Assembly (NCBI RefSeq): GCF_026151205.1 | Contig: NC_087079.1 | Coordinates: 14,384,445-14,448,444 of the forward strand | DNA: 64,000 bases | Reading direction: 5' to 3' | Source of the DNA: Bolinopsis microptera | Lineage: Eukaryota; Ctenophora; Tentaculata; Lobata; Bolinopsidae | In this document: positions 19,701-54,139 of the stretch, piece by piece | How positions within the stretch are numbered: the stretch's first letter is position 1 | Layout: each line of letters starts with the position of its first letter | Notes under the pieces: generated by a model | Told to the model about the DNA's origin: nothing | Seen by the model: the letters and a program-made list of their open reading frames with translations, nothing else | Database searches by the model: none | Made by a program: the position numbers and the translations under genes

Positions 19701-22700
19701 GATACGGGGGCGTTACGAATTCATGTGGCCCATACACATTCGGACGAGAGGCCGTTTGGATGCGAACATTGTGATTACAGAGCCAAGGTGAAGAAGAAGT
19801 TAAACCATCACGTTAGAAGAGTTCACATAAGATCACGTGATACAAATTTTTCTCGTGGTAAGTTCGAAGCGTGTTTTTTAGTCTACCAATAGTTTGATTT
19901 ATCTTAGAGTAAAAAGTCTTCAGCTATCTTTCTTTCTTTTTTAATCAAGAATTTACAGTAAGGATTGCAAGTTTCACAAACACTATTCAAAAATCTCCTT
20001 CCATTCTCCCTCGCTCTATAATACACTAACTATTGTTTGACGGAACATACCCAGCAGGAGGAGAGAAGACAGAGAAGAACAAGTAAAACGAAAGATAAAG
20101 TAGAGATAAAGATACTCTGGTAGTTTGCTTCTGAACTGCATCTCACAGATTACTTTTTAATTTAGCGTTTGAAAACTTGGGATTGAACTGTAGGGCACTT
20201 CAGTTCAACATACATTTAAATTGTTTTAATTGGATTCGCCTCTTCTGATAAATTCTGATACTTTTGGGCCCCCCACTTTTTAATTATACCTTAATTTTAA
20301 CCCGTATGTTTAATTTTATCTATAATTGTTTCCATTGACAGTTTCACTTTGACTTAGTTTGCAGTTTGCATGATATCAACATAATAATTGACAAAAACAA
20401 AAGAGTTTAAAGAAAAATACAACTAATAATGAGACACCCCAAGAAACACGCAACAAAAGTAAATTTGTTAGAATTATAAATATGTTATAAATATGTTATA
20501 AATATATTATAAATATGTCATAAATATGTCATAAATATGTCATAAATATGTTATAAATATGTTATAAATATGTTATAAATATGTTATAAATGTGTTATAA
20601 ATATGTTATAAATATGTTATAAATATGTTATAATTATAAACCTGTTCGTCTTCTCCCTCGGCACAGTCAGGATGTCTATCACAGAGCCAAGTTTTACTGA
20701 TACAAGTACCGTCATTACACTTCCACTCTAACTGATTGCACTTAGCAGCCTGAAGGGGGAGGTGTTACAGAGGTGTTACAGAGGTGTCACAGAGGTGTTA
20801 CAGAGGTGTTACAGAGGTGTTACAGAGGGAGGTGTAGGTATTTCAGTACAAAACACGGCAGAAGTAAGAAAGTAGGAGTCAGGGTTTCAACAATGATATA
20901 ACTTATTCGATACTAATGATGGCACCAATAAATCCTGCTACTTCTTTTATTGGTGATGTAACGAGTGACATAAGTGTCAACAATTGCAGAACAAAAAATA
21001 AACTTTCCTGGATAATAAACTCAATGCCAGGAAAATCATCACCACTTATTAAAACAAGGTACACGTTTCCCTCAGGACGTTTTAACACGTAGTTAGTTTG
21101 TTACTCACCACTCTGGGACACGTTTTAACACTAACAGTAGTTAGTTTGTTACTCACCACTCTGGGACACGTTTTAACACGTAGTTAGTTTGTTACTCACC
21201 ACTCTGGGACACTTCTTCTCGTCGTCCCCCAACTCACACTCCCTGTACCCGTTACACTTCATCCTAGCTGGGAGACACACTCCTGTTCCTTTACACTTGT
21301 ACCTGTTGTCAGGGGAGATCAGCAGGGACGTAGCCAGGATTTTTCTTTGAGGGGGGCTGTCGGCGAGCGAAGCGAGCCGACGCATCCAATCAAGCTGCGC
21401 AGCGAGCGAAGCGAGCAAGCTGTGGCAGGGGTCTGGGGGCGCAGCCCCCAGCGGGGTCCAGGGGCGGAGCCCCTTGGCGGGGGCTAGGGGGGCGCAGCCC
21501 CCGGAAATTTTTTGCGAAACAGGGTGTTTTAGACGACATTTGGCATTAAAGAAATTTGTAGGACAGCAATAAACTGGGATTGAAAAGAATCAAGTACTCA
21601 CGTAAATTTGGTAACTTCACAACAGCAATCTGCATTCTCCAATCAGAATTTACGACTTACTCAGGCCTCATCGTCTTAAGATTTTTACATTTCCTACGGT
21701 CTAGGGGACACTATTGACTATAATTATAGAAGTCTTCTAGAATGTTTGCTTGGATTTAATGACATATATTTACTAATCCACAGTTCAAATCTTTGACTGA
21801 CTGCAGTCATAAACACAGCCCAGTTACCAGGCGACCATGGGGACTAGGGGGCTTATCTTTTTTCTGGGGTTCGATTTTTTCCGGGGGGGGGGGGGGCTGC
21901 CGCCCCCCTAGCCCCCCCCCCCTGGCTACGTGCCTGGAGATCAGGACGTGGTGGTTATTATAATATATGTGTGAGAGTAATAGCTGGAGCAGTAGAAAAG
22001 AGAACATAACTGAAGGCAGAGTTTTAAATGCTGATAAGCATTCAACAAAACAATCGGATGATGTCGAATAACCAAGTAGTTTTCTGTTTAAAAACAAAAA
22101 TTAGGTATCACAACGTGAAATAAAATATATTACGGGGCGCTATTATGGATTAGATTTAAACCTCTCCGCGTAGTTTCATAAACGTTACTTCAAGTAAAGT
22201 ACGTTATAAGTAAGTTAAAGTAACTAACGTACCCATTACAATCATTAGAAGAGCTGCAAACACTCTCGTCCTCCATATCAAGACAGTCGAGTCTGCCATC
22301 ACAGAGTGAGGTACTGTCAATACACTTCACTCCGCAAGAGAACTGGGAACTGGAGCACCAGCCGCAGTCAGCCTGGTTAGAAAACAGTCGTCAAATATTG
22401 TGATAAGATTGCGGCTATGACTATAGATAGCGGTTTTGCTTTATAATAACTGAAAAGGGCCACTTCATTGCTGAGAGCGTCGAGCAGTCGATAATATATA
22501 TCAATAACGGAGACGAAGATACCCAACATTTTGGTGTAAATTTAATTAAAATATTCAGACAAGTAAAACTTCCAACCTCATCACTTTGATCAATACACTC
22601 AGCGTGGGAGGAACAGACAAATTCACGTGATATACACTCCCCTGAACCACACTGGTACTCGCTCTCCTCGTCACACTTCACACCCAATCTGGGGGACGGG

Positions 22701-52423: not shown

Positions 52424-54139
52424 TCAATCTACAGATAGATACTCAAAATCATAGTTCACAGGGAATGCCTCGTTACTGTTACGCAAATTGACTACCCTGG
52501 CCAAGGTCCCCTGGACTGTTTTAAAGAAGAATTAATTCAACTGTTATTAATAATCCCGAAGAATTGGAATATAGAACCATAACACATATCGGCCATTACT
52601 AAACACGAAAAATAAAACAACGCCAAACAACTTACTGGTAGCAATTTGGTTTGTTTCTTTTGATAAAACATTGTACTGATAAACAGTGTGTATACTGTAT
52701 TTGTACTGTACCACCTTCTGCTCCTAAGATAAATATCATTACAAGTCCGAAGTGGAAGTAATAGGTCACGTGTTAATTGGTGGTATAAGTAAGAACAAGA
52801 AATTTGTTTACCTCCAGCTGCATGTTTATAGATTTATATAGCGAGGTATAGACTAATTAATTCCTGGAATATTTCTGAAAATTCTATACCAATAGATAAG
52901 GGTACAGAACACTAACCTTCACGTAGAATAGATAAGGGAACAGAACACTAACCTTCACGTAGAATAGATAAGGGAAAAGAATGCTAACCTTCACGTAGAA
53001 TAGATAAGGGAACAGAACACTAACCCTCACGTAGAATAGATAAGGGAACAGAACACTACCCCTCACGTAGAATAGATAAGGGAACAGAACACTAACCTTC
53101 ACATAGAATAAATAAGGGTACAGAACACTAACCTTCACGTAGAGTAGATAAGGGTACAGAACACTAACCTTCACATAGAATAGATAAGGGTACAGAACAC
53201 TAACCTTCACGTAGAATAGATAGGGGTACAGAACAACAACCTTCACGTAGAATAGATAAGGGTATAGAACACTAACCTTCACGTAGAATAGATAAGGGTA
53301 CAGAACACTAACCTTCACGTAGAATAGATAAGGGTACAGAACACTAACCCTCACGTAGAATAGATAAGGGAACAGAACACTAACCTTCACGTAGAATAGA
53401 TAAGGGAACAGAACACTAACCTTCACGTAGAATAGATAAGGGAACAGAACACTAACCTTCACGTAGAATAGATAAGGGTATAAAACACTAACCTTCACGT
53501 AGAATAGATAAGGGTACAGAACACTAACCTTCACGTAGAATAGATAAGGGAACAGAACACTACCCCTCACGTAGAATAGATAAGGGAACAGAACACTAAC
53601 CTTCACGTAGAATAGATAAGGGTACAGAACACTAACCTTCACGTAGAATAGATAAGGGTACAGAACACTAACCTTCACGTAGAATAGATAAGGGTACAGA
53701 ACACTAACCTTCACGTAGAATAGATAAGGGAACAGAACACTAACCTTCACGTAGAATAGATAAGGGAACAGAACACTAACCTTCACGTAGAATAGATGAG
53801 GGAACAGAACACTAACCTTCACGTAGAATAGATAAGGGTACAGAACACTAACCTTCACATAGAATAGATAAGGGTACAGAACACTAACCTTCACGTAGAA
53901 TAGATAAGGGTATAGAACACTAACCTTCGCGTAGAATAGATAAGGGTACAGAACACTAACCTTCACGTAGAATAGATAAGGGTACAGAACACTAACCTTC
54001 ACGTAGAATAGATAAGGGTACTGGAATGTAGAACTGGAAGTGTTAACATTCTCAGCCACGAGCTGCACTGTACCAGCCGTGTAGACTTGAAGTGTGGAGT
54101 TGTCATTGATCACAAAGTTGTAACTTGTCGTTTGTACAC
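52424..54139 (-). CDS. 3' end of an unknown minus-strand gene upstream of LRP5/6
   Basis: Three exons in matching phase: 53997-54139, 52636-52723, 52424-52515, ending TGA. They encode a segment with SYNFVINDNSTLQVYTAG, VQYKYSIHTVYQYNVLSKE and LARVVNLRNSNEAFPVNYDF. No domain was recognised. The beta-strand-like alternation of hydrophobic residues suggests an extracellular fold. The stop lies 50 bp before the LRP5/6 ATG. The first listed exon starts at an acceptor, so further 5' exons must lie above 54140, but none was identified. The intron after it is a 36-bp minisatellite open in the same frame. Confidence 0.5.
52886..54010. repeat. 36-bp minisatellite with a donor in every unit
   Basis: About 30 units of ATAAGGGTACAGAACACTAA plus CCTTCACGTAGAATAG. 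On the minus strand a unit reads TACGTGAAG followed by GTTAGTGTTCTGTACC, so each contains an AAG/GTTAGT 5' splice site. It encodes VSVLYPYLFYVK in the frame of the preceding exon. Variants (AAC for TAC, CCC for CTT) are spread through the array. Confidence 0.93.

Follow-up and report, generated by a model that had tools for sequence, protein, structure and literature searches.

Tandem arrays at predicted exon-intron junctions of the ctenophore Bolinopsis microptera

Tandem arrays occur at predicted exon edges of the ctenophore Bolinopsis microptera more often than expected, and this location bias is real but moderate. In kinesin and myosin genes chosen regardless of repeats, 26 of 293 edges were spanned by an array or had one within 15 bp, where three nulls predicted 10.2-11.6. 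At about 3% of the edges (8/293; 95% interval 1.2-5.3%) the repeat unit is itself a copy of the junction. We regard these arrays as probable minisatellites of the type known as mirages, that is, duplications that arise widely and survive across junctions through splicing.

Tandem arrays in an LDL-receptor-family gene

The window, a stretch of 64,000 nucleotides (C8:14384445-14448444), belongs to a genome assembly of 264,652,675 bases in 232 contigs, of which C1-C13 hold 258.07 of 264.65 Mb (97.5%). The ligand-binding part of an ionotropic glutamate receptor encoded in this assembly has its best PDB matches in chain ML032222a of Mnemiopsis (105 bits) and in 4zdm of Pleurobrachia (81 bits), with the next receptors at 72 bits, in line with a ctenophore source. 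Open frames, splice-site scores and coding bias were used to predict a 32-exon gene of the LDL-receptor family on the minus strand; for the exon near 21.2 kb, the donor alone was placed. Arrays were detected with TRF and by direct reading of the minus strand, and all exon edges are predictions from the genomic sequence.

A tandem array was found at 10 of the 61 predicted exon edges of this gene. At four of the 61 (three donors and one acceptor) the junction lies inside the repeat unit, with 13 to 33 exon bases per unit. The other six arrays are separated from the predicted edge by 1, 4, 4, 8, 9 and 16 bp, and an eleventh edge has a 29-base C-run on the gene strand. The gene and its arrays are as follows.

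15756..54139, minus strand: approximate span of the predicted gene of the LDL-receptor family, 32 predicted exons
52891..54021, minus strand: 36-bp unit, 31.4 copies; 25 exon and 11 intron bases per unit, donor GTGAAG/GTTAGT, junction 53997/53996
49557..49670, minus strand: 55-bp unit, 2.1 copies; 22 intron and 33 exon bases, acceptor TTGACAG/GAAGTA, exon start 49589
29933..30510, minus strand: 23-bp unit, 25.2 copies; 16 exon and 7 intron bases, donor CTCTG/GTAAGTT, exon end 30495
29443..29664, minus strand: second array of the 23-bp unit, deeper in the intron after donor 30495
21077..21212, minus strand: 43/48-bp unit, 3.0 copies; 13 exon and ~30 intron bases, donor CAGAGTG/GTGAGT, exon end 21200
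46269..46358, minus strand: irregular ~9-bp array, 4 bp upstream of acceptor 46264
28461..28663, minus strand: 34-bp unit, 6.0 copies, 16 bp upstream of the chosen acceptor 28444; the degenerate last unit touches the acceptor
24378..24514, minus strand: 20-bp unit, 6.8 copies, 8 bp inside donor 24523
23567..23595, minus strand: 29-base G-run (C-run on the gene strand), 3 bases inside the weak donor CAG/GTGCCC
22997..23100, minus strand: 10-bp unit, 10.4 copies, ending 1 bp from acceptor 22995
20759..20828, minus strand: 11-bp unit, 6.4 copies, 9 bp upstream of acceptor 20749
20474..20637, minus strand: 11-bp unit, 14.9 copies, 4 bp inside donor 20642

The 25 exon bases of the unit at 54.0 kb were obtained by direct reading of the sequence. 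Acceptor 28444 was our own choice; site 28428 scored slightly better and would place the 34-bp array 32 bp away. The arrays listed in the original prediction were all present with the unit sizes given there, and its claim that at least four units hold a splice site together with exon bases was borne out by exactly four, with 25, 33, 16 and 13 exon bases. Introner elements would place similar sequence as introns at many loci; by eye, the units at separate junctions differ from each other, and sharing was seen within one intron (the 23-mer) and with a local segmental copy.

For this locus the null was drawn from random non-exonic positions within the gene, with the array zone reaching from 40 exon bases to 35 intron bases of an edge. 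The 10 edges with an array compare with 2.6 expected (P=2.7e-4), or with 3.7 when the two largest introns are left out (P=0.0036), which is a 2.7- to 3.8-fold excess. When only arrays of at least 60 bp and at least 3 copies were counted, nine edges carried one, against 1.3 or 2.3 expected. This locus had been picked for its striking look, and independent genes therefore carry more weight.

The gene had been labelled LRP5/6 from its sequence, and this remains plausible. In LRP5/6, LDLa repeats and a transmembrane segment come after propeller-EGF modules. Pfam applied to ten ORFs gave LDLa domains in three of them, a YWTD repeat that scored 20.8 bits, just under the cut-off of 21, and EGF-like matches below cut-off. 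When peptides from 23 of the 32 exons were concatenated, their best PDB matches were LRP2, LRP4 and LRP6. The propeller, EGF and LDLa exons and these matches agree with the label, but six LDLa exons are predicted (three of them, and a TM segment, read by eye), whereas vertebrate LRP5/6 has three.

Several other features of the window were recorded. Positions 1-3757 are an 86-92% identical copy of the 3' part of the gene (~18295-22430), including three of the arrays; its LDLa exon is frame-broken. Copy numbers in the segmental copy and in the gene are 13.9 and 14.9 for one 11-mer, 23.2 and 6.4 for the other, and 5.0 and 3.0 for the 43/44-mer, a difference that reflects paralogy and not polymorphism. 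A second haplotype of window positions 30500-32500 was sought in the genome and none was found. A repeat ORF region on the plus strand (17952-18957), zinc-finger-like of the C2H2 type by eye, is nested in an intron of the gene and has a copy at the window start. An intronic open frame of 659 aa (25235-27211, minus strand) has a weak Pfam match to ResIII (E=0.0089, below cut-off), and the largest intron (33400-45930) holds three similar ORF-bearing copies of ~2.5 kb, as judged by eye in the translations. A dispersed repeat of ~60 bp (31459-31518) had at least 51 further genome matches among the scored candidates, several of them inverted pairs, and is perhaps the end of a small transposon.

Arrays at kinesin and myosin exon edges

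Genome matches to kinesin (PF00225) and myosin (PF00063) supplied genes that were independent of any repeat content. The loci comprised the 30 best matches per family and 20 regions around further kinesin matches, which gave 157 exon matches spread over 56 islands (190.9 kb) and, once 21 edges lacking an acceptable splice site had been dropped, 293 edges. The three nulls were random, shifted and edge-finder-matched sites. Under the last of these, 10.2 edges were expected and the 26 observed give a ratio of 2.55 (interval 1.63-3.50 by gene bootstrap), with contributions from 16 of 37 gene clusters. Restricting the count to arrays of at least 60 bp and at least 3 copies left 13, with 4.7 expected. 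Four of the edges are doubtful (C6:14631149, C7:9563054, C3:9157378 and C3:11063595); without them, 22 of 293 edges remain (P=7e-4). A genome-wide test had been proposed of whether arrays lie closer to splice junctions than to shuffled intron positions; on these 293 edges an excess at junctions was found, though it is moderate and strongest at donors.

The two classes of edge array behaved differently. Arrays at 0-15 bp from the edge were found at 13 of 293 edges, with 3.4-4.2 expected, whereas arrays spanning the edge by 1-40 exon bases, also at 13 edges, compare with an expectation of 6.0-8.2, and P varies between 0.008 and 0.07 with the choice of null. With both classes taken together, donors carried an array at 16 of 142 edges (5.75 expected) and acceptors at 10 of 151 (4.45 expected); donors with an array at 0-15 bp numbered 10 of 142, against 2.2 expected. 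Among the first 221 edges, spanning arrays were at chance level (5 vs 5.8 expected) and, by difference, 8 of the 72 later edges were spanned. Recurrence of 16-mers around the same 221 edges was 2-3% at the junction, 4-7% at 10-60 bp into the intron and 7% overall, with a hump near the junction for donors only. Since spanning arrays alone are little above expectation, much of the signal may be ordinary short duplication that is tolerated by splicing. The process duplicating exon-intron boundaries that had been suggested for the LDL-receptor-family gene thus keeps its shared location, its units unrelated by eye and a bias that recurs in other genes, but targeting of the boundaries finds little backing in the spanning arrays.

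Fifteen edges were printed and read by eye, and eight of them were clear junction copies with 11-30 exon bases:

C12:14430083, junction-copying donor
C13:6732293, junction-copying donor
C2:16577840, junction-copying donor
C2:22504153, junction-copying donor
C5:9864626, junction-copying donor
C13:6736836, junction-copying acceptor
C2:6087038, junction-copying acceptor
C2:22514488, junction-copying acceptor

Pkinase was tried as a third gene set and set aside, as many of its domains lie in one intronless open frame and it was not possible to cut loci. Across the genome, single long open frames were found to hold many kinase and glutamate-receptor domains, which indicates that intron-poor families coexist with intron-rich ones.

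Other loci and whole-genome word counts

Junction arrays were also encountered outside these gene sets. An LMF-type exon (Pfam LMF1_C, E=1.7e-28) carries an array of 8.9 copies of a 65-bp unit in which its last 61 bases are joined to the beginning of the donor. A second, unrelated array (14 bp, 40 copies) ends just before its acceptor. Fourteen places with triple-donor arrays were examined on contig C1. The clearest coding evidence there was good and preceded the donor of L080, where a 34-bp unit with 26 exon bases is repeated 14 times; the exon has the look of a complement-control (CCP) domain by eye, and Pfam gave no match. At L085, coding evidence before the donor was fair. In L074, which has the donor word antisense, the array is at the acceptor of an LMF-type exon. 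L078 and L079 are two copies of one array that probably sits ~70 bp into an intron; L081 is ambiguous, and L086 and L087 are uninformative. L075, L076, L077, L082, L083 and L084 were rejected as mirages, having no convincing exon.

Splice-site words were counted across the genome as three spaced occurrences. The donor word GGTAAGT gave 4204 matches vs 26 for its reverse, GGTGAGT 2358 vs 868, and the acceptor word TTTCAGG 837 vs 321; the neutral word GTGATAG gave 997 and its reverse 1922. The first pair, taken at face value as a ~160-fold enrichment, was discarded as proof, because counts for non-splice words vary between 26 and 1922 and a long array contributes many matches. In a small sample of arrays that included the window, GGTAAGT was present in 5 of 133, with 0.55 expected, and the reversed word in 0.

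Array structure and proposed origin

Three two-copy arrays have a length of one period plus 4, 1 and 1 bp, which fits one tandem duplication event between sites of very short microhomology. Among the 14 junction-copying arrays, 11 have a first or only unit whose length is not divisible by three, one has a divisible length (36 bp) and two are mixed. Extra copies would thus mostly break the frame if kept in the mRNA, and they must leave as intron in most genes if the protein is intact. In the 25-copy array of the 23-bp unit, 19 copies have an intact donor, and most copies do so in general.

We hypothesize that tandem duplication copies a stretch of ~20-65 bp which runs from exon into intron or from intron into exon, the three clean two-copy arrays showing microhomology of 1-4 bp, and that some of these duplications expand through slippage or unequal exchange. 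The copy next to the exon would be spliced and the remaining copies discarded as intron. A duplication crossing a junction would then be nearly neutral, though harmful inside an exon, and the array could grow into the intron. Short tandem duplications would arise widely, and the ones that cross junctions would survive since splicing drops the extras; for the surplus within 15 bp inside donors, preferential birth or retention may be added. Some observations count against tolerance by splicing, the low excess of spanning arrays among them. On its own, tolerance does not predict an excess just inside donors, and donors are intact in most copies although competition between splice sites should not favour this.

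The donor surplus raises the possibility, which we consider doubtful, that boundaries are mutational hot spots where a donor- or transcription-linked factor starts tandem duplications. Unrelated arrays at both ends of the LMF-type exon would be in line with such a factor. However, the low excess of spanning arrays speaks against it, the breakpoints of the two-copy arrays have just 1-4 bp in common and showed no shared motif, and a bias in retention would give the same picture.

Chance is an unlikely explanation. In a minisatellite-rich genome with short introns, arrays could fall anywhere and a striking locus could have been picked; 12 of the 22 arrays in the LDL-receptor-family gene do lie away from edges, and the genome of Hormiphora, a related ctenophore, is reported to be 13% tandem repeat (PMC8527503). 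Around the first 102 myosin edges, arrays cover 7% of the bases beside exons, which is less than the mean of 10.9% for non-exon bases. Against this stand the edge excess in a gene set chosen blind to repeats, under three nulls and also without the four doubtful edges, and the units that copy conserved kinesin exon ends and so reveal what was duplicated.

It is very improbable that selection keeps the copies as redundant or in-frame alternative splice sites, with the 36-bp array able to add 12 codons for each donor skipped: this array is open from end to end (ORF 52887-54206) and an intact donor is kept in many copies, but most unit lengths are not multiples of 3 and the variation in the 36-bp array is neutral-like, with 11 synonymous, 25 non-synonymous and 0 stop changes vs 26:75:7 possible and hence no synonymous bias.

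Relation to known systems

Survival of widely arising duplications through splicing, the reading that we favour, has a close parallel. Minisatellite-like repeats spanning exon-intron boundaries are described in amphioxus as mirages (Adh3, globin, TnC and PGBD5), at donors and acceptors, with unrelated units of 10-72 or 150-160 bp; haplotype instability and an intron-gain model are reported for them (PMC3087553, PMC3902484), and they are said not to disturb splicing (PMC3087553). The ctenophore units likewise span predicted boundaries (4/61 edges in the LDL-receptor-family gene and 8/293 in kinesins and myosins) and involve both junction types, with three donors and one acceptor in the window and five donors and three acceptors in the kinesin and myosin set. 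Unlike those of amphioxus, they belong to another phylum, reach up to ~50 copies in some arrays and come with a first frequency over a gene set. A human minisatellite, reportedly in the 6-16/IFI6 gene, is said to provide multiple splice donor sites; its donors are repeated as here, but in a single gene.

A few cases are described in which a tandem duplication copying splice signals led to intron gain, such as ATP2A1, fission yeast and potato RdRp (PMC4974935; see also PMC2891723 for the small number of cases). There the duplication makes a new intron, whereas in the ctenophore arrays existing junctions are copied. No report of junction-copying repeats in ctenophores appeared among the top-ranked literature matches listed, which is weak evidence of absence. 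Minisatellites that copy junctions are thus of a known kind, and what is new is the second phylum and the first frequency.

Significance

That introns arise when segments carrying splice signals are duplicated has long been proposed, and proven cases are few. With about 3% of the sampled edges self-copied, a genome of this kind would offer many natural test cases for arrays that turn into introns, move a junction or alter a protein. A speculative and less likely reading is that exon-intron boundaries in ctenophores, donors above all, may be preferred birthplaces of tandem duplications, with several per cent of junctions self-copied now or once, independently of amphioxus, and that the copies may supply ready-made donors, acceptors and pseudo-exons for intron sliding and gain. 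What had been a curiosity of amphioxus is now placed in a second phylum.
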